A stretch of 64,000 bases of DNA from Siphonodentalium dalli (taxonomy: Eukaryota > Mollusca > Scaphopoda > Gadilida > Siphonodentaliidae), in the NCBI GenBank assembly GCA_032622095.1, contig CP136066.1:52854609-52918608 (forward strand), given 5' to 3'. The position numbers and the translations under genes are program-made. Positions 1-46,362 of the stretch are shown one piece after another. The notes beneath the pieces are model-generated. The model saw nothing but the letters and a program-made list of their open reading frames with translations. It was not told the DNA's origin and ran no database searches. The stretch's first letter is position 1, and each line of letters opens with the position of its first letter.

Positions 1-230
1 GCAACACCAACTTCGCGCATGCGCAGACGAGATCTCGGAAACGGGTGGAGCTATCGACTTGAAATTTGTTATGTGAATGTATCTTGCCCCGGATACGAAT
101 TTTATCGGGTCGCCGAGCCCGTGCGACGCCAGCTTCGCGCATGCGCAGACCAGATCTCGGAAACGGGTAGAGCTATCGACTTGAAATTTGGTTTTTGAAT
201 AGCCCGGACAACGTCGGGCTCATCGGCTAG
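1..230 (+). mobile_element. 3' part of a non-autonomous Helitron-like element
   Basis: This is cut by the window edge. It holds nearly two copies of a 122-bp core (landmarks GCGCATGCGCAGAC and GAAACGGGTGGAGC), then a GC-rich hairpin at 201-220 (AGCCCGgacaacgtCGGGCT type) and CTAG at 227-230. A hairpin a few bases before a terminal CTRR is the known 3' end of Helitrons. No protein-coding capacity is visible. The next element begins directly at 231. Confidence 0.65.
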
Positions 231-266
231 TCTATTATATATTTTGAAGACCTCTGTCTGTATGTT

Positions 267-302
<36 letters not shown>

Positions 303-808
303 ATTAATACAAATCTACGATTCTTGACCGATCGGGACGAAACTTGGTACGTGAGTGTAGTTTGACCAGGCGGTCGTCGTTGTCGTATTGGCGAGCCAGT
401 GCGGCGCCCGCTTCGCGCATGCGCAGACGAGATCTCGGAAACGGGTGGAGCTATCGACTTGAAATATGCTATGTGAATGTATCTTGCCCCGGATGCGAAT
501 TTTATCGGGTCGCCGAGCCCGTGCGACACCAGCTTCGCGCATGCGCAGACGAGATCTCGGAAACGGGTGGAGCTATCGACTTGAAATTTGGTATGTGAAT
601 GTATCTTGCCCCGGATACGAATTTTATCGGGTCGCCGAGCCCGTGCGACGCCAGCTTCGCGCATGCGCAGACGAGATCTCGGAAACGGGTGGAGCTATCG
701 ACTTGAAATTTGGTTTTTGAATAGCCCGGACAACGTCGGGCTGGGTAGAGCTATCGACTTGAAATTTGGTTTTTGAATAGCCCGGACAACGTCGGGCTCA
801 TCGGCTAG
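231..808 (+). mobile_element. Non-autonomous Helitron-like element, complete (578 bp)
   Basis: It begins with TCTATTATATATTTTG, the 5' TC start expected of Helitrons. A (TCTG)n tract follows at about 258-302, then about three copies of the 122-bp core (starting near 412, 534 and 656). A partial duplication of the 3' end lies near 725-780, and the element finishes with a GC-rich hairpin (778-797) and CTAG at 805-808. Internal tandem cores plus a TCTG-type microsatellite resemble the HINE/DINE-like elements of animals, such as bivalve pearl elements (family knowledge; not searched). Open frames through the cores are repeat artefacts: 122 bp is not a multiple of 3, and the same peptide recurs in shifted frames. 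Confidence 0.65.

Positions 809-838
<30 letters not shown>
809..838. repeat. (TA)n microsatellite
   Basis: An uninterrupted TA run starts immediately after the CTAG terminus of the preceding Helitron-like element. It may be either the insertion target or the AT-rich 5' end of the next element. Confidence 0.9.
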
Positions 839-839
<1 letters not shown>

Positions 840-843
<4 letters not shown>

Positions 844-1901
844 ACTTCATAGATTCGAAAACGAGTATACAGATTGAGCTCAAACTTCCTATGTAAGTGT
901 AAAATCTCACCGACACCGCCGTGTTCGCGTTTTGGAGAAGCTCAGAGCACCCGTTCTCCAATCTCAGTCACAAAAAAACGGCACTGCGGTGGTTAATCAA
1001 GTGATAGTTTAATGAGCGTTTGTTTTTGACGCATCGCTATAAAGAGCGTCTGTTTACCATTCAACGTTATTAGCATCTGCAGAGAGATATACGGGAACAA
1101 TAATTTTGAGTGGTTTCCTATGCGGGGGAGATTTATTGGATGCCATAGTACTCTTACAACATCATTGTTATAGTATGTATGACACTTAGGTCAGGGCTTA
1201 GGCATAATGCTTCTCAGAAATCTCGATTACAAACCAACACTCACAATTTTGTATTTACGCAAACGCAACGTTCCTATTTTTAGAACGCAACACATGATAC
1301 CAAACAAAATTACGTCGCGTTGGTGATGGCTTCACGACGGGATTAATTGACTTTCCGCTCTTTGCGAGGATGGGGTTCACGACGGGATTAACTTTGCGGG
1401 GACTATTGACCATCTCGTAAGGGTGGACAACCTCTGTCAGGGGCTGCTCAATGGCCACGGGCAGGTTAAAACAAATCATACCTCTTCTGGGTCTGGGCGT
1501 GTATAGACATGAGCGTGTTGTGTTCCTAAGAACGCGGAGCGTGTTGTGTTCCCAAGAACGCGGATCCGGTAAGTTTTTTCTGCCCTAGGTGAGCTCAAAC
1601 TTCGTATATAAGTGTAAAAACACACGGGGATCGTCGACGTCGCATTGTGTGAAACATTCTTATGTCTGTCGTTCCTAGGAGCGGGGGAATTTTTCATCGG
1701 GTCAGTCTTAACCTTCAAACGGGTACCCACAAATTATATATTGTGACCCCGACATGACCTTGACCTTGAAAATGATCAATTCAAGGTCAAATCGGGTAAA
1801 ATATTGAAAAACCCAATATTATCTCATTGAAAAACACAAACAAAACATAAAACATTGTCATGTTTCTGACCAAGCACGCCAGTGGCGGGCTAACCTGCTA
1901 G
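840..1901 (+). mobile_element. Third Helitron-like element (3' end clear, 5' end uncertain)
   Basis: The 3' end shows a GC-rich inverted repeat (about 1873-1890, GCC agt GGC core) followed by CTAG at 1898-1901, the same layout as the two elements upstream. Two diverged copies of a core with GAGCTCAAACTTC and GTGTAAAA lie near 870-935 and 1590-1650. The 5' boundary is hidden by the TA run. Open frames here, on the minus strand at 1255-1730 for example, have no recognisable domain and overlap these repeats, so I do not call genes. Confidence 0.5.
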
Positions 1902-1910
1902 TTTCTATAT

Positions 1911-2560
1911 ATAATCAATACGTGTGTTTGTGTAGTCGGAGAAGGCACCGACCAATCAATACGTGTGTTAGTGTAGTCGGAGAAGGCACCGACCAATCAA
2001 TACGTCTGTTAGTGTAGTCAGGGAAGGCATCGACCTATCAATACGTGTGTTAGTGTAGTCAGGGAAGGCACCGACCTATCAATACGTGTGTTAGTGTAGT
2101 GGGAGAAGGCACCGATCAATCAATACGTCTGTTAGTGTAGTCAGGAAGACACCGACCTATCAATACGTGTGTTAGTGTAGTCGGGGAAGGCACAGACCTA
2201 TCAATACGTGTGTTAGTGTAGTCGGAGAAGGCACCGACCTATAAATACGTGTGTTAGTGTAGTCGGAGAAGGCACCGACATATCAATACGTGTGTTAGTG
2301 TAGTGGGGGAAGGCACCGACCAATCAATACGTGTGTTAGTGTAGTCGGGGAAGGCACCGACCTATCAATACGTGTGTTAGTGTAGTCGGGGAAGGCACCG
2401 ACCTATCAATACGTCTGTTAGTGTAGTCGGGGAAGGCACCGACCTATCAATACGTGTGTTAGTGTAGTCGGGGAAGGCACCGACCTATCAATACGTGTGT
2501 TAGTGTAGTCGGGGAAGGCACCGACCTATCAATACGTGTGTTAGTGTAGTCGGGGAAGGC
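1911..2560. repeat. 41-bp minisatellite, about 16 units
   Basis: The unit contains CCTATCAATACGTGTGTTAG followed by TGTAGTCGGGGAAGGCACCGA. Successive CCTATCAAT starts at 2361 and 2402 fix the period at 41 bp. Units differ by few substitutions (GTGTG/GTCTG, CGGGG/CGGAG/CAGGG) and are most uniform near the right end. No coding role is visible. Confidence 0.95.
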
Positions 2561-2686
2561 TTATTGTAATCTCTTATTGAATGCTGTTAATACTCTCTAT
2601 AAATGACATAGAGATTATTTTCTCCCACTCTTGGGAATTCGTTAATTAACTCTTTCATATCTGGAGCTTCCTGAAATTTTGCGAAA

Positions 2687-2768
2687 ACCCTGTGCCAAAG
2701 CATTCTCTTATATATGCGAGTAGACCATATGTCGCCTCGCATATAAAAGAGAATGCATTGGCCTAACA
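2687..2768. mobile_element. Solo hairpin of a fold-back MITE family
   Basis: It starts with ACCCTGTGCC and runs through CATTCTCTTATATATGCGAG and its inverted copy to GCATTGGCCTAAC. This is one of the two subterminal hairpins found intact in copies at 17.0, 20.7 and 46.0 kb. The second hairpin is missing, so this is a truncated or solo end. Confidence 0.75.
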
Positions 2769-2789
2769 CACTTTATATTATTTTTTTTA

Positions 2790-3330
2790 TAATTGTTAAA
2801 GAAATTAAGAAACAATGTTAAACATTAAGGCTTTATTTGTTTGTGTGTAATGCGTTCCCACATCAATAATTTGTATAATACGCTATACTACGTCAATAAA
2901 GCAATTTTCAGTCAATATATACCAGGATGTGTTGATCAATGTCGCAACCATGTGGGCGCACCTTCCGGAATATTGACTTATCCCAACTCTGGAACACAAT
3001 GTGAAATTAAGAACTAGCCACGGTTGAATAAAGTATACCACTACCGGTTGGACTATTGCCATAACTAGTGTATGTCGCAAGCATATGGATGCACTTATGA
3101 CACGATATCAATATTGCACGCTTGCATGGTATGGAATATATACACAACACTACGCGTGTGAGTTATTGTTGTCAGTATATCGGACGGGTTCAATGGCGTA
3201 GGATAGCACAATCTGCCAAAAAACATTATTGTTCTCCGTAAGAGACTCATGCATGAGTGTCATATACACTATCGGCCGATATATTCTAACTGACTCTTCC
3301 CAATCGATGTCTCTACAAATTACGTTCGTC
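2790..3330. other. No gene seen
   Basis: AT-rich single-copy-looking DNA. Short open frames (2883-3080 and 3150-3347 on minus) lack domains or splice context. Confidence 0.5.
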
Positions 3331-3337
3331 TTCTTTA

Positions 3338-3847
3338 TACACAGCAAACACCACCATATGTTCTTCTTCTTTATACACAGCAGTCTTCTCTATACCACCA
3401 TATGTTCGTCTTCTTTATATACAGCAAACACCACAATATGTTCGTCTTGTTTATACCACCATATGTTCGTCTTGTTTATACCACCATATGTTCGTCTTCT
3501 TTATACCACCATATGTTCGTCTTCTTTATACCACCATATGTTCGTCTTCTTTATACCATCATATGTTCGTCTTCTTTGTACAACCATATGTTCGTCTTCT
3601 TTATACACAGCAAACGCCACCATATGTTCGTCTTCTTTATACACAGCAAACTCCATCAAATGTTCGTCTTCTTTATACCACCATATGTTCGTCTTCTTTA
3701 TACCACCATATGTTCGTCTTCTTTATACCACCATATGTTCGTCTTCTTTATACAACCATATGTTCGTCTTCTTTATACCACCAGATGTTCGTCTTCTTTA
3801 TACCACCATATGTTCGTCTTCTTTATACCACCATATGTTCGTCTTCT
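3338..3847. repeat. 25-bp minisatellite
   Basis: The unit is TTCGTCTTCTTTATA followed by CCACCATATG, repeated about 20 times. Some units are extended by an ACAGCAAA insert, which makes longer variants (3343-3450 and 3600-3655). The unit has no plus-strand stop and is 25 bp (1 mod 3), so all three plus frames stay open. The apparent proteins of 121-209 residues are therefore one repeat read in rotating frames. Confidence 0.93.
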
Positions 3848-3859
3848 ATGTAAGGTAAG

Positions 3860-5425
3860 GGAATTATTTGTAGACGATTGAGAGGCCAACGTATCGCGCC
3901 ATAATTATTATGTTAACTCAAATGTATAAAATACCAGCGAGTATACATAAACCATCTATATCAAGAGAACATATTGTCGATTGACATGAATAACTGACCC
4001 CGGCAACTTCAACTAATCATCACTTATGTTTGAGATATCTGATATCTGATTTTTTTCGGGTTAGCTGTCGTGTGTATGATAGGCCTATATGTATAATAAT
4101 ATTAATTGGAAATTACCACACGAGATATGGATGTTGGAATGAAACAACGGTAGTCGACCAATTGGCTTGAGTGGTGATATTTCGCTACCTGCTTTAGCTG
4201 GGTAATTACTATCTAATATCAACATTTCTTCCTTCTTCTTATACAATGCAATGGGTTGATTTATGTCAGCGGAAGATTCAAAATATTGTTCCATAAAATA
4301 GTCCAGGCAGAGTCCAGTTTATGTATCGTACTGTTTGTTCAAAAATTACCACACGTGTCTTAACTGTGCGTGATAAGGACAATTATGCTGAGCCACACGT
4401 TGAAATTATATATTTTCATGCGCTGCCATGACAATTAGGTTAATACAAAACCCTGTTTTTTATGTTACTAGTATATGGAACTTTTGTAATCATAAAACAC
4501 TTTAAATATACGCCCATATGTGTTACATCGCATTGGGACTTAGGATGCCCCGTATTATGTGTCGATATTATTGTATACTAACCATCATGTGCAAATAAAC
4601 GGTTTCGCTTTCTCGAGTGTAACCTTGGAAATCCACCATCTTTGGTCGAAGGTAATATTTTACATTTATAAAAAACTAGTATATATAGTTTATACTGTGT
4701 TGTATTGTGTTATTTTCTAGAACATGCTATCATGTGACTTATTTCCACTAAAATAAAATACAATTTGTCGTATTTTGGATAAATTCAAGCACATTGTAAA
4801 CTCTAGTAAATCTATAGTTTTAAAATATAAAAGACTTCCATTGACAAAAGAGTGTGGGGTTTTCATGGTTACTCATGCTAGTTAAAGTCCTAGCTAAGAT
4901 AACAAACAAGGGAAAATCTCAAACATTGGACATTCAAGGACTATTTGTAGGATGATCTAATGCATCTCATATCTTGTTTGTGACATTTGACCATTTTAAT
5001 AAACATTTGTTAGCACAAGTAGCAATATTGGCTATGGAAATGTAAAAATGTACGTTTGTGGCATGTGAAAATCAAGTTAGAAACGTGAAATATGATGCTA
5101 ACCGGCCGTAAAAGCCATTATACAGGGTACAACAACTGGGTACAATCGTACGTTTACCAGGAGTTCAATACAAATAATACAAAAAAATACGGGGCGTTCA
5201 ATGCTAGTTTGTCAGATTTTACCGGTCGTTCAATTATGTTGGAGCACCACGCTTTGAAATCGGGCTCGTATATCGAGAAAACAGCGCGTGGCTTTCAATG
5301 GGATATTAAGGCATCCAAAAATCTCTTTGTTATTAAATACGACATCGGATAGTTTGAAAAATGTGCTTTTGATCGCAAACGTGACGTATTTTTAGCACGA
5401 AAATAGGAGGTTTAACCTTGATTTA
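3860..5425. other. No gene seen
   Basis: About 1.5 kb of AT-rich sequence without repeats I can define. The largest frames (4085-4294 minus, 69 codons; 5092-5352 plus, 86 codons) match no family I recognise and have no supporting splice sites. Confidence 0.45.
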
Positions 5426-5429
5426 CGAG

Positions 5430-6460
5430 AGAACTGGACACGACACTGAAACGAAATTAGTCTGAACATGTCCTATGGGATAAATACTCACCAATGGTTC
5501 TTTAGTATAGAAAGGATTAAACATATTATCTGACCATTTCCTAAGGGATAATTACTCATCAATAAGTGCATAGTATATGACGGATTAAACTTAGTATCTG
5601 AACATTTCCTAACTACTCATCAATGACGCTTTAGTATAGAAAGGGTTAAACTGATTATCTGAAAAATTCCTATGGGATAAATACTCACGAATGATACATT
5701 GGTATAGAAAGGGTTAAACTTATTATCTGAATATTTCCTATGGGATAAATACTCATCAACGAGTATAGTATAGAAAGGATTAAACTTATTACCTGAACAT
5801 TTCCCGTGTGATAACTAATCATCAATTATGCTTAGTATAGAAAGGGTTAAACGTATTATTTGAACATTTCCTATGGGATAACTACTCATCAATGGTGCTT
5901 TAGTATAGAAATGGTTAAACTTATTATTTGAACATTTCCTATGGTATAAATTCTCACCAATGATGCTTTAGTGTAGAAGGGGTTAAACTTATTACCTGAA
6001 CATTTCCCATGTGATAACTACTCATCGATGATGCTTAGTATAGAAAGGGTTAAGCTTATTATCTGAACATTTCCTAACTACTCACCAATGATGCTGTAGT
6101 ACAGAAAGGGTTAAACTTATTATCTGAACATTTCCTATGGGATAACTATTCAGTAATGATGCTTTAGTGTAGAAAGTGTTGAACTTATTATCTGAACATT
6201 AACTATGGGATAACTACTCATCAATGATCCTTTGGCATGGAAAGGGTTGAACTTGTTATCTGAACATTTCATATGGGAAAACTACTCATCAATGATGGTC
6301 TAGTATGGAAAGGGTTGAACTTATTATCCGAACATTTCCTATGGGATAACTACTCATAACAAAAAAACTTGAGATCAGAAAGGGTTAAACTTATTATCTG
6401 AACATTTCCTATGGGATAACTACTTATTAAATAATGCTTGAGTGCAGAAAGAGTTAATAC
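5430..6460. repeat. 68-bp degenerate tandem repeat, about 15 units
   Basis: The unit reads GAACATTTCCTATGGGATAA, then CTACTCATCAATGATGCTTT, then AGTATAGAAAGGGTTAAAC. Units show many substitutions and some deletions of GGGATAA, so the array is old. A single related unit sits at about 33258-33325, next to a MITE end. Confidence 0.9.
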
Positions 6461-6465
6461 ATATT

Positions 6466-7320
6466 TCACCTTTGTCCAACTTGTAATTTATCACTAGTTT
6501 TTCTGCGTGTTTCTGTTTTTTTTTTTAGTTTCGGTTTCTCGATGATCCTATATTTTTGTTTATGAATTTGGCGAAACAAATTCAGAAATAACCAAAATAT
6601 TGGCCAAAAGAAATGTCCGGCCCATGTGAATCCATGATGGCCAGCACATTCTAGTCGGTATTGTGGGGACACTTGAACTATATTATATATCTACTGTATC
6701 TGACCCTATACTGACCCAACCAGACGAAGGCGTCCAAACCAATCACCCGCACAATCTCTCAGTTGCCAATTTAAGGTAAGGGTCAGACGGTAAGGGTCAA
6801 ACGGTAAGCGTCAAACGATTGCGGATCCTCTATGCATATACACCGTAACTTAATAGAGTTATTTCTCTTGGATTATATGTTATAATAACCCACTGGGTGT
6901 TTTTGATCAAGAATATTGTAAATTGTAATGAATACCAGAATCGTTTCTGGACTCAATGGATCACCCCTGACTAAGTGGTCCTGCTAATTTGATATGGTGC
7001 TGGTGAGTCCTGCTTATTTCTATGATACTGGTAGGGTTAACTAATGTTGTTAAGAAAAAATACAGTTAAAATGTCGTTTTGGCTGATCTGAATAAATCGA
7101 AGAAAAGTCACTATGCATACAAAAGTAATTGATATATTCAGTATTGTTGACTTCTTAAACTAGATCCTGGATTCCATGTTAAAGCCGGATTCATTATTTC
7201 GATCGAATATGGCTTGCCGTCAATTTGTATTTATATCGTATATGCATGTTTTGCCATACACTATATATATACCCGTTTCGTTCAACTCAGAAGTTTGTGT
7301 TACTTTTCTGCCAACAATAC
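6466..7320. other. No gene seen
   Basis: There is a short GGTAAGGGTCAAACGGT repetition at 6775-6815. Nothing else is assignable. Confidence 0.5.
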
Positions 7321-7324
7321 CATG

Positions 7325-7630
7325 AATGCATTGGCCTAACAATTTTTTTTACAGTTTTAATAATTGTTTCTTGTATTCTTTAACAAGTTTATAATTTCAC
7401 CCATACAGAACCCCAGACAAACATGAGTAGACGACACTCTTTTATATGCTTCTATATATGTGTGGGGCTCCCTGCAGGGTAATGGATGTTTTTTTATTTT
7501 ATGTCCTAAAAATTGTAAGAAAAAGTTATTAAAAAAATGATAAAAAATTATTAGGCCAATGCATTCTCTTATATATGCGAGGCGACCTATGGTCGACTCT
7601 CATATATAAGAGAATGCGTTGGCACAGGGT
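7325..7630. mobile_element. Fold-back MITE copy, left hairpin truncated
   Basis: The right end (7556-7630) carries the complete hairpin ending GGCACAGGGT. The left end keeps only AATGCATTGGCCTAAC. The interior (7380-7555) is the reverse complement of the interior of the 17-kb copy, sharing GGGGCTCCCTGCAGGGTAAT. The copy is therefore inverted relative to those at 17.0 and 20.7 kb. Confidence 0.8.
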
Positions 7631-8070
7631 GAACAATCTATCCACGATGTTGTTGGGACCGATCATCCACTTCTGAACGTTCACTTTATAGTTACATGCA
7701 CGTGTGAAGTACTGTCATAGAGATCATACTGCTAAACCTATATTCGCCGCGGTATGTTTTGATATTTATTTTGAATCTATCAGTTAGAGGGATCAGTGGG
7801 CAATTCCTAATGCATATCGGGACTCTTTTTTTTATCGCAAACGCGACTTTTTATGAAATACCGTTGTTGTTGTCGTTCACAATTTATTTTCATCGCGCGC
7901 TATCCACCACTAGCCAGGTACATAATGTACAATCACACACCCTCTGCATTCAGACAATTATCGCCAATATAGGAATCAGTACAAATCAACATACGGTTTA
8001 CACGAACGTTTTCAAGGCTTATCAATCTTTAACTGCAGCCTCCACTGCATACAAATCGATGAACCACACT
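7631..8070. other. No gene supported
   Basis: An open frame at 7759-8112 (117 codons) runs into the neighbouring 132-bp repeat and shows no domain. I do not call it a gene. Confidence 0.45.
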
Positions 8071-37963: not shown

Positions 37964-37967
37964 TTAA

Positions 37968-37997
37968 GGCCTATGGGAAGCAGTGAAAATAGGTGAC
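37968..37997 (+). repeat. Left TIR of the 7.56-kb transposon
   Basis: 30 bp, an exact reverse complement of 45499-45528, with TTAA immediately outside. Confidence 0.95.
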
Positions 37998-39645
37998 TAA
38001 AAAACATATAAGGACCCTGACTTGAGTTCATTGACAAGCAGGACAGGGCTAACATTTGCATCAGCAGTTTGAAGAGTCATTATAATGCTATTGTCTGGTT
38101 GGAAAAAAATATGTCTCATGCAAAATGTGACTTTTGTGAATATTTTTTTCCAAAGCAAACTAAATACTCTCACTTACATTTTTGACAAACTAAAAAGATG
38201 GCAATATCACAATTTAAACATGTCATAAAACAAGCGCCAATTGGTTTCGTCAAGCTTGTGATAGATGGTGAAGAAATATTTAGTTGTGGCAACGGCCCAA
38301 TGGAGGAAAATGCAAGAAAATGGCCGCTCGCAAGACGATGACTCGAAATCTAGGTGACTAATATGTGTCTATCACATATTACTGAACGATCAAGACCGCG
38401 ATCTGCTGATCCTGGGTATAAATACAATCCAGCATGAACGGTGCAAACTTACATATCAGTATAAAAGCATCTTTGATGAAATAAAGCTGTTTTCAGCGTC
38501 AATAAATATTTTACAACTTTCGGTTTGTTTTGATTTCGAAGAGGGTGCGTAGGGATACGAAAATTAGCGATAACGGTTGGTACAAAAAACACACAATCGC
38601 GCCATTAAAAATTCCCAGACTATAAAATTGTTATAAACTATCGAGTAACGAACTTTCTTCCAAATAGAAGACGTAAATAAACATTGTGATTTCATTAAAA
38701 AAATTGGGAATTTTTTGACCGAAGATTCGCATAAATATTTCGACCAATCAAAATGACTTCCGGTGTGGCTGATAGAATGATAGAAAAATCGTAAACTTTC
38801 AGAGTTTACGCGTTTAAAAAACTAATTCGGCCGCGATCAAGCATAATATGTCTTCCTAAATATTGACTATTGACGTATATGTCACCATACATAGTTTGAT
38901 TCTCTGATCAGGGTGACGATCGTTTTACAGATCGATTTCATTTTCCAATTTGATCGAGTATTTACGATAGCCCACATATTTGGGGTCAGGTTTATATCCC
39001 CATGGACCGAAAAGGTAAACAATTGCTTGAAAAGCATAATTTGATAATATGTAAGTGCGATCTGTACTATAATCACATACATATAGTAGCTACAATAATA
39101 GTATTTTGGGGGTTCTCTACTATTGCCTTGTAAACTGATGATTTCGGGAGGCAATTCGAAAAAAAACATGAAAAACAACACATGTGTCATGATGTGAGGC
39201 CACAATCTATGGAAAGACAAATTGAACTGTGTTTGCAAATGAAGAGTTAAGCACATGTTCAACCACCTATTTGCTTCCCATAAAAATACTTGCTTTTAAC
39301 GTCCAAATCTTATAAATTTTTGATTTCACTTTCCAAACGATGCATTTTTAATAATTAGCATGCATATACATGTGTAGGATACTAAAATAAAATGTTTTTA
39401 ATTGTTGTTATGAACATGATCATAGGCAACCAATCAGACTCCAAGGAAGGTGACAGGTTGGTTTGAAAGTGTGTTTACAGTTTGTCAGTACAGTTCTGTG
39501 TGAAGTGGACAAGTTGAAAAATATTTCAGTGGTTTCAAAAAATTTGGAAAAAAAATCGTCATTTGTCACAATATTGTGGCACATTTTTGTGTATTATTCA
39601 TCCTTCTGTTGTGCTATTACATTATTATATTTTGTTCATGTTTAA
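37998..39645. other. 5' non-coding region of the transposon
   Basis: 1.6 kb without a supported gene. A TATAAATA motif (about 38417) and an AATAAA (about 38479) are present but cannot be tied to a transcript. The minus frame 38882-39262 (126 codons) has no domain. The promoter of the SGNH ORF should lie here. Confidence 0.45.
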
Positions 39646-40361
39646 ATGGCTGGAAGAAAGTTGCGAAAATCTTGTAATAAGTTATCTGAGGAAGCTGTGA
39701 ATTTTAGTGTTGGAAATAACTGCCGAGTTTTCCTAGTTTCTGACAGCAAAGGACGATATCTTCAGCAGGAAGTTCTTGACAGTGATAATATTAATGTTCA
39801 ATTTATATATAAGAGTGGAGCCAAGTTTCAGAATAGTTATAAGGGTTTGAAATCAAATTTTTTTACTGCATTGCAACTTGTAGGCCTACCTGTGTTCCAA
39901 TTGTTGTTATCTGGTTAGGAACTTGTGATTTGTCAAACTTTCAAAATGGTTATATCACGTTGCCACAAGACAGTACAGTCAATTGTGAAAAATCAATTAT
40001 TGAACAGCTGAAATTCAAAGAAGCTATTGTTACTGCAAAATCTCATGCACAAGTTGTTTTTTTAGAATGTCCAAAAGTGTCAGCTGATTGTTGGAATAAT
40101 TCCAGGACATATCCTCTGACAACCAGCATTGATTCTAATATAAATGTGATTGTTGACACCTTGAATAGTGATATCCATACAATGAACATCTTGCCAACTC
40201 CAAAATTAAATAATGATCTCGTATATACATCCATTGTCCAAGGCCAGCGTGCAACACAAATTGATTTAACTTTATTACCGGATGGAGTGCACCCTAGCAA
40301 AGATCTTTCAAGAGTATGGCTTCTTAGACTGTATAAACTAGTACACAAACTTGCAAATTAA
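39646..40361 (+). pseudogene. SGNH-hydrolase-like protein of the transposon (one frameshift)
   Basis: The start MAGRKLRKSCNK opens a frame to 39918, and the matching second frame runs to the stop at 40361. A one-base shift at the T7 run 39858-39864 joins them. Across the break the order is that of SGNH/GDSL-type folds: block I VFLVSDSKGRYL (candidate Ser codon 39745-39747), block III IVVIWLGTCDLS, a central strand VVFLECP, and block V DGVHPS with candidate Asp and His codons at 40281 and 40290. The full length would be about 239 residues. SGNH enzymes hydrolyse esters, but some homologues in transposons have no proven activity. ATTAAA at 40428-40433 may end its transcript. The transposase ATG follows 164 bp later on the same strand. 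The shift could also be a homopolymer sequencing error. Confidence 0.7.
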
Positions 40362-40525
40362 ATACTCAAGACATCAGGTTTAAGGGATTGCTCTGTCGCC
40401 TGATGTTAGTATTTATGCTTTTCTGTCATTAAACTATATTTATGCATTAAATCATCAAAATATTGTGGTATCATATTATATGTACATGTAATTATTGTAT
40501 CTTGATATACCTGGTACCTGTAGTC

Positions 40526-43500
40526 ATGGGTAGCAAACGTAAAATACAACGGGTGTTCAATAAGCATTCACTGAAAAGATTACGACAAACAAATCCAATG
40601 CTTGGCTTTGGAAACACGGATAGTATCTCTCTTGAACATTTACATGTATCCACTTCCCCACATGTTTCTGATTTCTCCGAGACTCAAATCACAAATGTTC
40701 CCTTTGACCCATGTAGAGAGTTTGAGATACTGCAATCTGAGCCCTCGTCAGATAAGTCGATCACCATTACAATAAAACAAAAACCGGATGTAATGCCACC
40801 CACAGGATACAGGTGCATAGATTTAAATAGGCTATCTGATCACATTAACATCCTATCACAACACCACATGGAGTGCTCCAAAGAGTCAAACATTTCTTCT
40901 TATGGCCCTCCTTTTACATTGACTGATGAGGCTCAAAGACATGGGCTAGCAAGTGTGCTTCAGTACAAATGTACCAGTTGCGGTGAAAGATTTTTATTTC
41001 GAACATCAAGTAAAGTAGAGGTTGATGGTGCACAGAAGAAGAAGATACATGACATTAATTTGAGAAGTGTATGGGGCAACATGGCTACTGGTGGTGGTGC
41101 AATGGAGCAGAATGAGCGCTTTGGTGTTTTGGACATGCCTGGACTATCTCAAAATACATTTTCCAAGATAGAGACCATTATTTCTACCAAATGGCATGAA
41201 ATTCTTCACGAAGATATCTTGCTGAATGGTATTGAGGAAAGACATCTGGCCAAGGAGCGTGGACATATTGAAGATGGTGTGCCATATATAACTGTAATTT
41301 GTGATGGTGATTGGTCAAAAAGATCCCACAAGCATTCATATAATGCTCCTGGAGGTGTTGTCATCATTGTTGGAGCGGCTACTAAAAAACTGCTCTATGT
41401 GGGTGTCAGGAACAAGAATTGCTCTATATGTGCAAAAGCAAAAAAAAGGCCTACAACCACCATAACACATTTGTTATCGCAATTGGTCAAAATCGAGTCA
41501 GGCTATGGAAAGTGATATCATTGTTGAAGGATTCAAGGCTGCGGAGCAAATGCATGGAGTCAGATTTAAGTATCTTGTCGGTGATGGAGATAGCAGCACG
41601 TTTGCACGCATCAAAGAAGAGGTCCCTGTGTGGGGTTCAAAAGTACAGAAACTTGAGTGTGCAAATCATTGCTGTAAATGTTTGCGAGGTAAATTGGAAA
41701 ATTTAGTCACCGACAACCCTTCATACAAGGGTCAAAATAATCTGACAAAGTTAATGCGAATGAAAATGGTGGCAAGTGTCAGAAACACCATTAAAAATGG
41801 TCTGAGCAATATCATGTCTCATCAGAATCTGACAAACAGTCAAATATCGAAGGCCTTGGGAAAGACATCCGCAATGTTGCTAAACATGTTTTTGGAGACC
41901 ATACCCACTGTTCATCTTTCTGTTTCAAAAAATCTCAGAAAACAATACATGTATCTGCATCTGTCAATGTACCACTTTCTAATGACCCCGTAGCAACAAC
42001 TTCCTCTGATATACCCTCCTTGTCTCACACACATGACTCCCAACTTTCTACTGATATTTCTGAACAAACTCATCAAGTCTCAGCCTCATCCACAACTATT
42101 GTTGATTCACCTGATGATGATATGTGTCAGGAAATTGATGATGTTGTTAATTTCTGGAAAGATCTGGATGTTAATGTTGACAAGATGGAAGATGATGAAG
42201 GTGATGGATATGCTGCCCTACAAAATAAAGATCTCATGAACGACCTGCAGAAAATTCTTGACACAATGGCCCAGAAATCTACTGCTCTGATTGCGAACAG
42301 CACTACAAACCTTGCAGAAAATTGGATGTTCATCCGAACACGTTTTGATGGTGGTAAAATCTTTAACCGTACAAATCGAGGTTCTTGGCATGCCAGGTGT
42401 TATGGAGAAGGTCTGCGACGTAATCTTGGACCATTGTGGGCGTCATTAACTTGGTAAAAGAGTTTTGGAACTGATGCAGGACAAAACTTTCATTTATTAT
42501 ACAAACAGAGAGAGAAACATCTAGAAACAAGCCTCAGAAATCAGAATAAACCCGAAGCAAAAGAATGGAGAAGAAAAAGAAAAATTGCGGCAGCTAAAGA
42601 TGCAAATGCAAAACAGGCAAGACTGGAATATGGACCAGAGGCACTGGAAGTCTCAGATGACATTAGCCAAGATAACCTAACCAGCAAATGCGAAGATTTC
42701 TTGAAGAACCATATCAATATAACACCGGAATCTATTGAGGCTATTGAAAAATCTACAAAAGAACAATCTGCTTCTGGGTTGTGGGCAGAGGAAAGACGCA
42801 TCAGAGTGACATCATCAAACTTTGGTGAGATATCAAAACGAAAACCCACACTAAAAATAGACCTCTTCGTTAAGCGACTTCTTTACTCCACATTTCATGG
42901 GAATCGCATTACTAGGAAAGGGCTACGGCTAGAAAAATCAGCAGTTAAAGAATACATTGCCAAGTGTCGATTGATTGACGATCAATGTAAGGTTGAGTCC
43001 ATGGGGTTATGTGTTTCCCCTGAATTTCCTTTCTTAGCAGCAAGTACTGATGGTTTGGTAATACGTCAATCTAGAGGTCAAGGTCTGTTGGAAATTAAGC
43101 ATGTGTTGATGACAAAGCAACATAGTTTTCAAGAGGCATGCTCGTCAGTTCAAAATTTTCCTTTAGAGTTGATAAATGGTGAATTCAGGTTAAAAAGAAC
43201 ACATAACTTTTATTATCAAATCCAAGGTCAAATGAATGTTTTCAATCTTCCCTGGCTTGATTTCCTTGTAAGGCGTACTGATCCGTATGAGTTGCATATA
43301 GAGCACATACAGAAGGATGAATTGTTTTGGCTCAATCAAATGGTTCCGAAACTTTCATCATTTTACCATAAAATAATCCTTCCGGAACTAGCATCTCCGA
43401 GATATGGTCAATCTCCTGGAATTCGGGAGCCTGGTGTCTGGGTAATATATATATCTATATATAATCAAAGTGTTTGGCTGTGTGTATGTTTTTTGTGACT

Positions 43501-43842
43501 TTATTGGCATGTTTGTAATATCACACCCATCTGTTCAATAGAGCCCAAATTTGGAACACCTCCCGTGGCATACCTTCAAACACATCTTGCAAAATGGCAT
43601 AAACAATTTAAGAGCTATCGGGTATCTGTTAAATTACCATCTTAAAGCATTCCAGCTTGCCTGGACATGTACATGTATCTTTATATCATCTGAAACAAGC
43701 GGTATAATTTTACCTTCATTTATTTCAGTTTGAGGAGCACAAGACAACAAAATCTGTTTCACAAAAAACAAGAAAGAAAATCACAGCCAGCAATGTGAGA
43801 TATATGTCTATTGAGAAATCGCTGTATTCGTTGACGGCCTGA
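40526..43842 (+). pseudogene. DDE transposase (Mutator/Kolobok-like) fused to YqaJ-family nuclease, disabled
   Basis: I chose the ATG at 40526 (MGSKRKIQRVFNKHSLKR, basic start); the frame opens 21 codons earlier without support. Order: basic N-terminus; zinc-type CTSCGERF; DDE core with VICDGDWSKRSHKHSYNAPG (Asp 41303 or 41309) and KNCSICA; then, after a frameshift near 41465, NWSKSSQAMESDIIVEGF and YLVGDGDSSTF (Asp 41583/41589), with ECANHCCKCL following. A second shift near 41860 leads to DIRNVAKHVFGDH, then TTNLAENW (candidate Glu 42317) and WHARCYGEGLRRNLGPLW. A TAA stop at 42455-42457 is in frame with the downstream part. The C-terminal domain is PD-(D/E)XK of YqaJ type: ERRIRVTSSNFG, STDGLV (Asp 43049), LLEIKH (Glu 43091, Lys 43097), YYQIQGQMNVF. 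A phase-0 donor at 43442 and a CAG acceptor at 43728 give a last exon, 43729-43842. Two shifts plus one stop make this copy non-functional unless they are sequence errors. Confidence 0.82.
42630..43441 (+). other. YqaJ-type PD-(D/E)XK nuclease domain within the fusion
   Basis: This part is uninterrupted. Established knowledge: YqaJ proteins belong to the lambda-exonuclease-like branch of PD-(D/E)XK nucleases that resect DNA ends during recombination. The motif order RVTSS, E (GLRLEKSAVKEY), D-G, E-I-K, Q-x-Q is complete, so the nuclease part retains its predicted catalytic residues even though the transposase part is broken. Confidence 0.8.
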
Positions 43843-43943
43843 AGAAGTGATGACTGATGGTACTGTTGATGTTGTAGCTTGGGCGGTGAGATCAGATGTA
43901 GGAATAATTGTTGGCTGCACTGAAGCTGAAGCTGTTGTGGATA

Positions 43944-44147
43944 ATGGCGAACATATCACATGAGTGGGTGGATGATTCTGGATCGTCAAAGTGGTATACT
44001 GGTAGGGTGACTTCCCTGGTTGACGGTACTGATGGGCGAGCTGGTGCGATATACACCGTTCATTATGATGATGAAGACACTACCTATGAAGTAGACCACC
44101 TTGTTGATGATTACACATCTGGCTCTGTTCGTTTTACTGATATATAA
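43944..44147 (+). CDS. Small Tudor/chromo-like domain protein of the transposon
   Basis: 67 residues from an ATG at 43944 (MANISHEWVDD); an upstream in-frame ATG at 43908 adds 12 residues with no domain match. The pattern EW-x-WYTGRV, then IYTVHYDDEDTTYEVDHLVDDY resembles the W-x-G-x-V ... Y-x-V-x-Y-D-x-E-D-x-Y barrel of Tudor/SAWADEE/chromo-type readers, which bind modified histones or other proteins. It lies 100 bp after the transposase stop, inside the TIRs and on the same strand. It could be an independent ORF or an alternative last exon. A GTAAG just after the stop may be a donor. No break is seen. Confidence 0.55.
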   Translation: MANISHEWVDDSGSSKWYTGRVTSLVDGTDGRAGAIYTVHYDDEDTTYEVDHLVDDYTSGSVRFTDI

Positions 44148-44149
44148 AG

Positions 44150-45498
44150 GTAAGATAAGATGCATTCAAATGAACATGAACAGTCTATCTATTATTGCAA
44201 CAATTTATCTTGTATACTAGCATGCTACGGTATAATAGAAACTTTGATAGTCAGTTAGTAACTAATTCAACTTGTCTTGTTTCCAATATCTGTAAGATAC
44301 ATGTATTTGTCCATGTAGTTCAGTTTATGACCCCTTGAAATTAAGCAAATATCCCATGTCCCATAGATTCCACATGTTGCCACATCATGCCATTGCCAAG
44401 TTTTGATGATTGATTTTATTTAATGTTCAATATCACTATTTACATCAAAATCATATCTCTTTAATATTTGTAATAATATAAACACACCTGTTAACTACAG
44501 TACTGCAATAATGTAAGATATATTTTAGTTGTATCCTGATCTAAAAATGTACACATTTTAAATCAATTGAGCAAACATTAGAAATAGATCATAGGTATGT
44601 TTCGACATCCCATTTTATTTCACAACCTGATCAAGTACTGTTAGATCCATTTGTTTTCTTTCAGATGTGGTAGAGTATTTCATGCTGCAAATAGATATTA
44701 CCTGTATTTTTACCCGATGCATCCACGGTTTGCTGATTTATCATCCTTTACATATATATATTACCTTGACTGATTTTGCTGACCGATAGTTACTTGAGCC
44801 TTCGGAGCCAAGTGTGGTGAGTATACAGGTTCTCATATCTTTTTTTGATGTTCTTACCTTTTCAATTGTTCTGCTAACTTGTAATGTTGTTTCACTTCTA
44901 GTACAATATTTTTGCCAAACAAATTTGTGTCTGACATCAATGGTGTTGCCCCTTGACACCTGTTATTAATTCATTTAATGCTGTGGGCCTTTTCAAGGCC
45001 CTTTTACGATCAATTATGCTGTCTTACACATATTCAGTTGAGCACATGTAAGACTGTATTGAATTTCAATTGTTATTTGTGAAGTTGTACTTCCCGAACT
45101 TATGAACATTTTGTCTTCCATACATTTCACTGCTAATGTAGTTCCAGTCAGCAGATAGTTAGTCAATCAAAACAAATGTTTGAAGCCAATTTGCAACATT
45201 TTCTTATTATTTATCATGCAATACACCAAGTGCTTGTCCTGATTTGAATAATGGAGTTTATGACCATGGTGTTTATTTTCAGTTTTGATGTTCCATTTCC
45301 TGTTACCTGAACATAGGAATTGTGTTGTCTTTCTACAGATTTTGGAGGAACATCAGAGTTCAAACTACCTGTAACAGACTTTTGTGGTAAGTTTGATGCT
45401 GTTTCATTGTCAATGACTCCTGTAGAAATAACAGGAACCTAAACTTGTTGAATTTTGCCACAATATTGCATGTATTTCCACTTGGTGTCCATTTTCTT
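44150..45498. other. 3' non-coding region of the transposon with splice-like sites
   Basis: There is no ORF with a domain. Several good splice-like sites exist: TTCTTTCAG|ATG near 44664, GTGTG|GTGAGTAT near 44819, and CTACAG|ATT near 45340 paired with TGTG|GTAAGTTTG near 45388. They suggest spliced, possibly non-coding 3' exons. Confidence 0.4.
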
Positions 45499-45528
45499 GT
45501 CACCTATTTTCACTGCTTCCCATAGGCC
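45499..45528 (-). repeat. Right TIR of the 7.56-kb transposon
   Basis: 30 bp, an exact reverse complement of 37968-37997, with TTAA immediately outside. Confidence 0.95.
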
Positions 45529-45532
45529 TTAA

Positions 45533-45980
45533 ACAAAAATTATTACAAAAATTATTTAATAAAAAATGTAAACTCAATTCTTGGTTTTGTTACTTTTAGA
45601 GTAACTTACTTGCTCTATTATTGTTCGCAAATACAAATATTTAATCCAAACAGGATATATTGGTATATAAAAAATGAGATCGAACTTATGGCCCATTCAC
45701 GGATTCTCAGATACATATATAAAATTGTTAAACACAAAATATAATTTTTAATATGTGTTTCTTTCGATTAAACATCTAGCTCAACTTAACAACAATTAAA
45801 AAAACCCATTGTTTGGAATGAAAATATTAAGGAAAAGCGGCTTTGTAACATCCGCCTGGATATCCCGAGCCAATTGTCGTTATTAGCATTCGCGGCGAAC
45901 GACCGATCGCATCGATGGGCGGAATGAGGCGGCTCCGTCTTGGGGGTACTGTAAGTCAAATCAGCAATTTCAATTTCGAC
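45533..45980. other. No gene seen
   Basis: Short AT-rich spacer between two TTAA-type elements. Confidence 0.5.
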
Positions 45981-45981
45981 C

Positions 45982-46362
45982 TTAACCCTTTACCCAACAG
46001 AAGGGCCCTGTGCCAATGCATTCTCTTATATATGCGAGTCGACCATAGGTCGCCTCGCATATATAAGAGAATGCATTGGCTTAACGCATTAAATATTATA
46101 AAGAAAAAATGGTAAAAAGTGTTTAAAAAGATTTTTTTAGGCCAATGCATTCTCTTATATATGCGAGGCGACCTATGGTCGACTCGCATATATAAGAGAA
46201 TGCATTGGCACAGGGCATAACTGTAACTATCACAATGTGGTCAAGGAGCCGGTTCCAATGATATCCATATTTGTATGGTTCTATTGAGACAGACCGAAGA
46301 TATTTTAGGCTGTTGAAGCTTTACTTGGCCGGTTTTGGCCGGTTTGTTGGGTAAAGGGTTAA
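45982..46362. mobile_element. piggyBac-like MITE with TTAA flanks (hosting another MITE)
   Basis: TTAA (45982-45985) is followed by CCCTTTACCCAACA, and the right end TGTTGGGTAAAGGG (46345-46358) is followed by TTAA (46359-46362). CCCTTT-type TIRs next to TTAA are characteristic of piggyBac elements. Without the nested insertion the element would be about 160 bp. It has no coding capacity. Confidence 0.85.
46005..46216. mobile_element. Double-hairpin fold-back MITE, short form, nested in a piggyBac-like MITE
   Basis: The termini are GCCCTGTGCC and GGCACAGGGC, with the same 75-bp hairpin at each end as in the 17-kb copy. Only about 60 bp lie between the hairpins, so it is an internally deleted member of the same family. 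Confidence 0.88.

Follow-up and report, generated by a model that had tools for sequence, protein, structure and literature searches.

A probable KolobokE-type transposon of Siphonodentalium dalli with an SGNH-fold gene and a predicted Tudor-like tail on its DDE-nuclease transposase

When an accessory gene is met in a DNA transposon a single time, its meaning is difficult to judge. A stretch of 64,000 nucleotides from the scaphopod Siphonodentalium dalli (contig CP136066.1, positions 52,854,609 to 52,918,608; G000:C6:52854609-52918608 in our searches; here called the window) holds a transposon with coding modules for a DDE transposase joined to a YqaJ nuclease, for an SGNH-fold protein and for a Tudor-like domain. 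Do these modules belong to one element, and what kind of element is it? The answer reached here is that the window contains a member of a family which probably belongs to the cut-and-paste DNA transposons of KolobokE type and has a pair of genes, gene 1 coding for the SGNH protein and gene 2 for a spliced DDE-YqaJ-Tudor transposase.

A first-pass annotation, made from the letters of the window, had placed perfect 30-bp terminal inverted repeats (TIRs) at this locus, with TTAA on both sides. Its coordinates proved right to the base. The element occupies 37968-45528 (7561 bp) between the two TTAA sequences, and beyond the perfect 30 bp of the TIRs scattered matches continue up to about position 41. 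A search of the genome (2.23 Gb, nine contigs) with a 137-bp end probe gave at least 40 matches, and 20 probe-matching stretches were retrieved for comparison. Ten of these (L009-L018), distributed over six contigs and 7.4-7.6 kb in length, are further full-length copies repeating the same ends. They share 96-98% identity with the window copy and reach 99.97% when compared with each other, the latter value indicating that the family moved recently. TTAA is present on both sides in 11/11 full-length copies (window included), whereas the flanks are unrelated, the highest left-flank identity being 39%. The annotation had itself named a unique and coincidental TIR/TTAA pair as the finding that could undo it; chance is ruled out by the 11 copies having the TIR pair and TTAA at unrelated sites. 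In one copy, L009 (G000:C9:105489500-105497510), the 16-base flanks are reverse-complementary at 15/16 positions, so this insertion is centred in an almost perfect palindrome.

L019 and L028, also among the retrieved stretches, have diverged further but still match SGNH, transposase and Tudor exon. The remaining eight (L020-L027) had no coding match within the stretch; they comprise fragments, end-sharing relatives or short derivatives, and are read as non-autonomous or decayed derivatives. L024 (G000:C3:92359820-92361560) contains at positions 219-1524 a derivative, about 1.3 kb long, that retains TTAA and the two ends, shows 72-79% similarity to the end regions of the element and is likely non-autonomous. 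In L026 and in L027 one recognisable family end adjoins a sequence matching internal positions 858-1281; the two parts are arranged alike in both stretches, which points to a rearranged derivative common to them.

The features of the window copy are listed below (positions in the window).

37964..37967, no strand: left target-site duplication TTAA
37968..37997, plus strand: left TIR, 30 bp, begins with GG (5'-RR), perfect match to the right TIR
39646..40361, plus strand: SGNH-fold gene, frame broken here, 238 aa in open copies
40526..43441, plus strand: transposase exon 1, frame broken here, open in 5/11 copies; ATG and splice sites checked
40847..41855, plus strand: PF20700 Mutator-like DDE transposase domain, in two frames here (Pfam 3.9e-43 and 3.7e-26)
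42782..43240, plus strand: YqaJ (lambda-exonuclease-like) nuclease domain (Pfam 4.8e-11)
43442..43728, plus strand: predicted intron, GTAATA...TTTATTTCAG, 287 nt; the exons of L011 join in phase
43729..44147, plus strand: predicted transposase exon 2, a variable Ser/Thr/Pro-rich linker and the C-terminal Tudor-like domain, broken here by the inversion
43796..43961, minus strand: in-place inversion of 166 bp inside the last transposase exon (Tudor exon); the minus-strand match was also obtained in the genome search with the Tudor exon
45499..45528, minus strand: right TIR, 30 bp, ends with CC (YY-3')
45529..45532, no strand: right target-site duplication TTAA

The transposase was analysed in the open copy L011, where PF20700 matched at 1.7e-83 over residues 109-468 (Pfam), and YqaJ (PF09588) matched above its cut-off, at 2.1e-9, over residues 755-907, C-terminal of PF20700. 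When L011 was compared with a second family, represented by L059, D261, GDGDSS (D355/D357), C380-A-N-H383 and E600 were found to be identical; which of the D and E residues are catalytic can be assigned putatively. Both families have a CCHC finger (C300-x2-C303-x12-H316-x-C318) downstream of the first D. H461, C464 and C468, candidate residues of the zinc finger expected between C/DxxH and the last E, in which the third C is near-invariant, are present and conserved in the two families as well.

Exon 1 codes for 992 aa up to its own stop codon. In L011 removal of a predicted 287-nt GT-AG intron (not the only in-frame GT-AG pair) joins the transposase frame in phase to the Tudor exon, and the predicted spliced transposase would have about 1,111 aa. 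In L059 the predicted splice position is identical, between W and FE, and the intron is 771 nt long. Because splice position and phase are kept in the two families despite the different intron lengths, the coding regions most likely form two genes, not three, the Tudor-like region being the predicted 3' exon of the transposase. Thus, the three plus-strand coding regions of the annotation are present, but they belong to two genes and all of them are broken in the window, and what had been taken for a separate Tudor-like reader protein is most likely the second exon of the transposase. The spacing of the two genes varies little: gene 2 starts 168-172 bp past the SGNH end in 11/13 loci of the first family, and the matched part of the transposase (residue 59 on) begins 272-279 bp past the SGNH end in nine loci of the second.

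The fusion of a Kolobok transposase with a lambda-exonuclease-like (PD-D/ExK) nuclease is known from the published KolobokE lineage (Kojima and Bao 2022; PMC9587614). The present element has the TTAA duplication in all full-length copies, termini of the 5'-RR...YY-3' type (GG...CC), a C/DxxH motif between the second D and E, and the nuclease following the transposase domain. Taking into account that the DDE-nuclease fusion, TTAA, ends, CxxH and CCHC finger are shared with that lineage, the element is probably of KolobokE type, an assignment made by these features; in this respect the annotation, which had proposed a TTAA transposon with a DDE-YqaJ fusion and had pointed to Kolobok, is borne out. 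The CCHC finger is also common to KolobokP, KolobokD, Kolobok5 and a few others, so it is not specific for KolobokE (PMC9587614). KolobokP and KolobokD likewise have a nuclease added to the transposase, but the nucleases differ (His-Me finger and DEDDh, respectively; PMC9587614), and KolobokP is ruled out by the absence of long terminal direct repeats, the ends of the present element matching over about 41 bp in inverted orientation. piggyBac elements share the TTAA duplication but differ in transposase family by Pfam, and the ends here are GG...CC; with PF20700 and YqaJ over cut-off and no piggyBac DDE family found at E values up to 1, piggyBac is ruled out. Elements of the Mutator/MULE type make target duplications of about 8-11 bp. 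Although PF20700 is named Mutator-like, the direct repeat beside the ends is TTAA only, which rules out this assignment as well.

Do the SGNH and Tudor-like modules really belong to the element? They are present in the full-length copies and, in the same order, in the second family. In L059 the element extends over positions 149-7888 of the stretch, with a left TIR identical at 24/30 positions, TTAA at the left and TCAA at the right side; L048, of the same family, has TTAA at its left end. Identity between the two families is 52% for SGNH, 58-67% (depending on the stretch) for the transposase and 53% for the Tudor exon. Differences at the three codon positions are 0.38/0.25/0.57, 0.33/0.21/0.56 and 0.39/0.31/0.66 in the three modules; dN/dS was computable for SGNH only (0.44/1.51). 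At the level of codon positions, this pattern shows constraint on all three modules between the two families. About 40 bp to the right of the right end of the second-family element, at about 7929-8454 of L059, there is a repeat array with several frames and repeated MPYMYIYCG / YALHVYLLRNLLCPTCIFIA.

The search was extended to more distant relatives in the genome. On the transposase side, the best 46 of 722 candidates were scored, and 81/82 match rows gave 44 clusters; on the SGNH side the best 150 of 514 and on the Tudor side the best 150 of 164 candidates were used, which makes absences uncertain. Among the matches listed, 31/44 transposase clusters were preceded by SGNH and followed by a Tudor match, with all three on one strand. 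In no cluster (0/44) was SGNH downstream or Tudor upstream, the means under random placement of the modules being 0.005 and 0.01; the probability that the order arose by chance is near 0. Where the weakest stretch had at least 60% identity, 24/25 clusters had both modules, and the module order was still held in clusters where SGNH identity had fallen to 28-31%. Starting from SGNH, 39/141 merged loci had a Tudor exon downstream, versus 0.06 expected; in classes of falling identity the counts were 12/12, 2/2, 14/17, 0/38 (33-40%) and 11/72 (below 33%). All returned SGNH stretches (30/30, from 26 places, 46-100% identity to the query) also held the transposase. These observations suggest that the order SGNH-transposase-Tudor is old within the genome, and that SGNH may be missing from some relatives. 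Co-occurrence of the modules holds for the full-length copies (SGNH inside the TIRs in 11/11) but is not shown for the whole lineage: 8/20 retrieved stretches are without a coding match and 11/44 transposase clusters without a listed SGNH.

Five relatives (G000:C3:126085016, C3:26222449, C1:141198727, C1:252907260 and C1:82038461; best stretches 52-56% identical) have no listed upstream SGNH and doubtful Tudor matches, and could possibly constitute an SGNH-less sister lineage. At G000:C4:229360233-229379244 two three-module elements face each other head to head; they nearly mirror one another and have equal match scores, which suggests a large inverted duplication. A collection of viral contigs, searched with the transposase and with the SGNH and transposase alignments, and one of prokaryotic contigs, searched with the transposase alignment, yielded no relative that was confirmed by tblastn, a result that says little about animals.

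The structure model of the SGNH protein, made for an open copy, had a pLDDT of 85.8, and Foldseek and VIA-align matched it to SGNH/GDSL hydrolases. Thus the esterase-like fold of the annotation is supported by the model, whereas the Tudor reader label attached to the other accessory module is sub-threshold. A PDB sequence search with the SGNH protein found nothing significant. In 9/9 aligned SGNH sequences the DSKG motif (Ser, block I), G58 (block II) and DGxHP (Asp-x-x-His, block V) are invariant, and block III reads GTC[DE] in place of GxND, the Asn being absent; the equivalence of these residues with catalytic ones was set by motif, not by superposition. As regards catalysis by the SGNH protein, the intact Ser/Asp/His and the block III Cys pull in opposite directions. 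With Cys in place of Asn, the protein may hydrolyse weakly or in an altered way, or may act by binding; either appears likelier than a standard esterase. An SGNH-fold domain serving as RNA- or protein-binding scaffold is the OSK domain of Oskar.

In the window the element is defunct: interruptions occur in the SGNH frame as well as in the transposase frame, and the Tudor exon is disrupted by the 166-bp inversion at 43796-43961, a site which is colinear in 6/6 other family copies checked. Among the 11 full-length copies, the SGNH frame is open in 8/11, transposase exon 1 in 5/11 and most of the Tudor exon in 10/11; in L009 and L018 the Tudor match begins only at exon residue 11-12. The family has been recently active, while the window copy itself is broken. 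Just right of the element, at 45849-46240 of the window, lies an inverted repeat with overlapping opposite-strand reading frames, both of which read the CQCILLYMRVDHRSPRIYKRMHW motif.

Several observations weigh against the proposed two-gene, three-module element. Among the matches listed, the clusters lacking the complete set comprised 10 with Tudor only, 2 with SGNH only and 1 with neither, and where the weakest stretch was below 60% identity, both modules were present in 7/19. Five of the 41 Tudor matches (32-35% identity) consist mostly of linker, stop at residue 109 and may be compositional; with these excluded, Tudor is found in 36/44 clusters, and clusters with neither module number 6. 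In view of the 10 loci with Tudor and no listed SGNH, five of which depend on such doubtful matches, SGNH may not be universal. Of the SGNH loci at 33-40% identity, none of the 38 had a listed Tudor match, and five SGNH-Tudor pairs within 12 kb were in the wrong order or on the wrong strand, one of them being the inverted piece of the window and two being cross-pairs of one head-to-head locus. The Pfam match of the SGNH protein (Lipase_GDSL, 0.015) is below cut-off. So are those of the tail (best among six members: Agenet 0.018, Tudor_5 0.033, Spin-Ssty 0.13), for which cut-offs were compared with member 1 only, this member being below all three. The model of the tail, with five predicted strands, is poor (pLDDT 47 overall, 58-66 over residues 61-120), and Foldseek returned hits at E values of 0.04 or worse, with bacterial PafBC/WYL regulators first and Spindlins from rank 8. 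Finally, the intron and the exon join are predictions from genomic sequence.

The Foldseek result was not used as evidence for a Tudor fold, as the hits were without significance and came from a poor model. In the PDB sequence search nothing significant was found with the tail, the best E values being 0.033 (transcription elongation factor S-II) and 0.27 (UHRF2). The Tudor label is therefore weak and sub-threshold, and the functions of both the tail and the SGNH protein described below are what we infer.

In the proposed mechanism, which we consider as a whole the probable explanation, the DDE core would bind the TIRs, excise the element and insert it at TTAA; the duplication is seen in the copies, and the chemistry is that expected of the DDE family. 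The YqaJ nuclease, located in the same polypeptide, would most likely trim 5' ends, either those of the donor break or those of the element, and such trimming would favour homology-directed repair of the donor site, keeping the copy number. The Tudor-like tail would most likely bind methylated ligands, histone or protein, and in this way anchor the transposase and bias where or when insertion occurs. The SGNH protein of gene 1, presumably kept with the transposase by selection, most likely takes no part in strand transfer itself but acts either as an esterase/deacylase or, in the manner of the CR1/L2 SGNH proteins, as a scaffold binding lipid or protein, and may contribute to localisation or complex assembly. 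A more far-reaching version is doubtful, though worth stating. It would see a full kit here, in which the transposase combines an end-resecting nuclease with a methyl-mark reader and a Cys-oxyanion SGNH has diverged alongside it across families, SGNH being a class-independent accessory of selfish DNA.

Could the SGNH gene and the Tudor tail be mere passengers, host pieces which one family captured once and which have since travelled with the element without any role in transposition? That 11/44 related transposases have no SGNH among the matches listed, and that SGNH genes are tied to very different mobile elements (PMC5408684, PMC4021074), would fit such an origin. Passengers would, however, decay neutrally, whereas the module order persists where SGNH is down to 28-31% identity, and both modules show codon-position constraint like that of the transposase, a comparison made between two families only; the passenger explanation is improbable. 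It is scarcely credible that the SGNH gene is an independent element, for example a CR1-like one with an esterase ORF1, which often lands beside or inside transposons. Esterase ORF1 proteins do exist in CR1, L2 and RTEX (PMC3905857, PMC5408684), and 102/141 SGNH loci have no downstream Tudor match among those listed, but SGNH is inside the same TIRs in all 11 full-length copies, stands at nearly constant spacing to the transposase on the same strand, is never downstream of it (0/44), and was accompanied by transposase sequence in all 30 SGNH stretches of 46-100% identity.

The gene structure and the role of the SGNH protein can be read differently, too. If the Tudor-like region had a promoter of its own and formed a third gene, it would be understandable that the exon 1 frame runs 54 nt beyond the donor site to its own stop, so that translation of an unspliced transcript would yield a tailless protein. 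Against a third gene, the Tudor frame has no Met in 9/10 copies with the frame, and two families with introns of different length agree in splice site and phase, which makes it highly improbable. A catalytically dead or altered SGNH protein, working as RNA- or protein-binding scaffold rather than as esterase, is a serious possibility, even if not the favoured one: the oxyanion Asn (N195 in ZfL2-1, PMC3905857) is replaced by Cys throughout (9/9), but a pure scaffold would not need the Ser, the block II Gly and the Asp-x-x-His that are invariant in the same nine sequences.

How does the two-gene KolobokE-type element compare with known systems? The annotation had suggested that linking this domain set to a defined element may be new. 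For the DDE-nuclease fusion this does not apply, as it is already known on a defined element, KolobokE; the SGNH gene and the Tudor-like tail are new for a KolobokE-type element as far as we have searched. The main text of PMC9587614 names neither SGNH nor Tudor, no other paper in the literature searched names KolobokE, and none was found that names Kolobok together with YqaJ. Among the papers listed from that literature, which lay outside Repbase, Dfam, supplements and subscription papers, neither SGNH nor Tudor was found described in Kolobok, and, with Repbase sequences and supplements again outside the scope, no report was found of an SGNH protein in a DDE transposon. The Kol0 group (Kolobok-1_XT) with KolX is likewise a two-protein Kolobok, but KolX has a cytoplasmic-ballast fold, in contrast to the SGNH fold here (PMC9587614). 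SGNH-fold accessory proteins of selfish elements are found, as here, in the esterase ORF1 of CR1, L2 and RTEX (PMC3905857, PMC5408684) and in the GDSL ORF3 of bdelloid long terminal repeat (LTR) elements and Terminons, all of these being retroelements. In the oxyanion hole, ZfL2-1 has N195 (PMC3905857) where the present family has Cys; among the bdelloid elements, LTR ORF3s are described with intact invariant residues and Athena-L derivatives without the catalytic residues (PMC5408684). The Texim SGNH genes next to fish Helitrons are presented as multi-intron genes captured by a rolling-circle Helitron (PMC4021074), unlike the SGNH gene inside a TIR element described here.

One genome thus provides many diverged families in which the three modules keep one order, as well as some relatives apparently without SGNH. 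Close relatives with and without SGNH make the role of SGNH in selfish elements, still open in the papers on retroelements, testable, and the reader-like domain, physically tied to the transposase, is testable for target choice. If the full kit outlined above were true, SGNH proteins would have been recruited by retroelements, Helitrons and DDE transposons for one need, for example germline ribonucleoprotein or membrane localisation.

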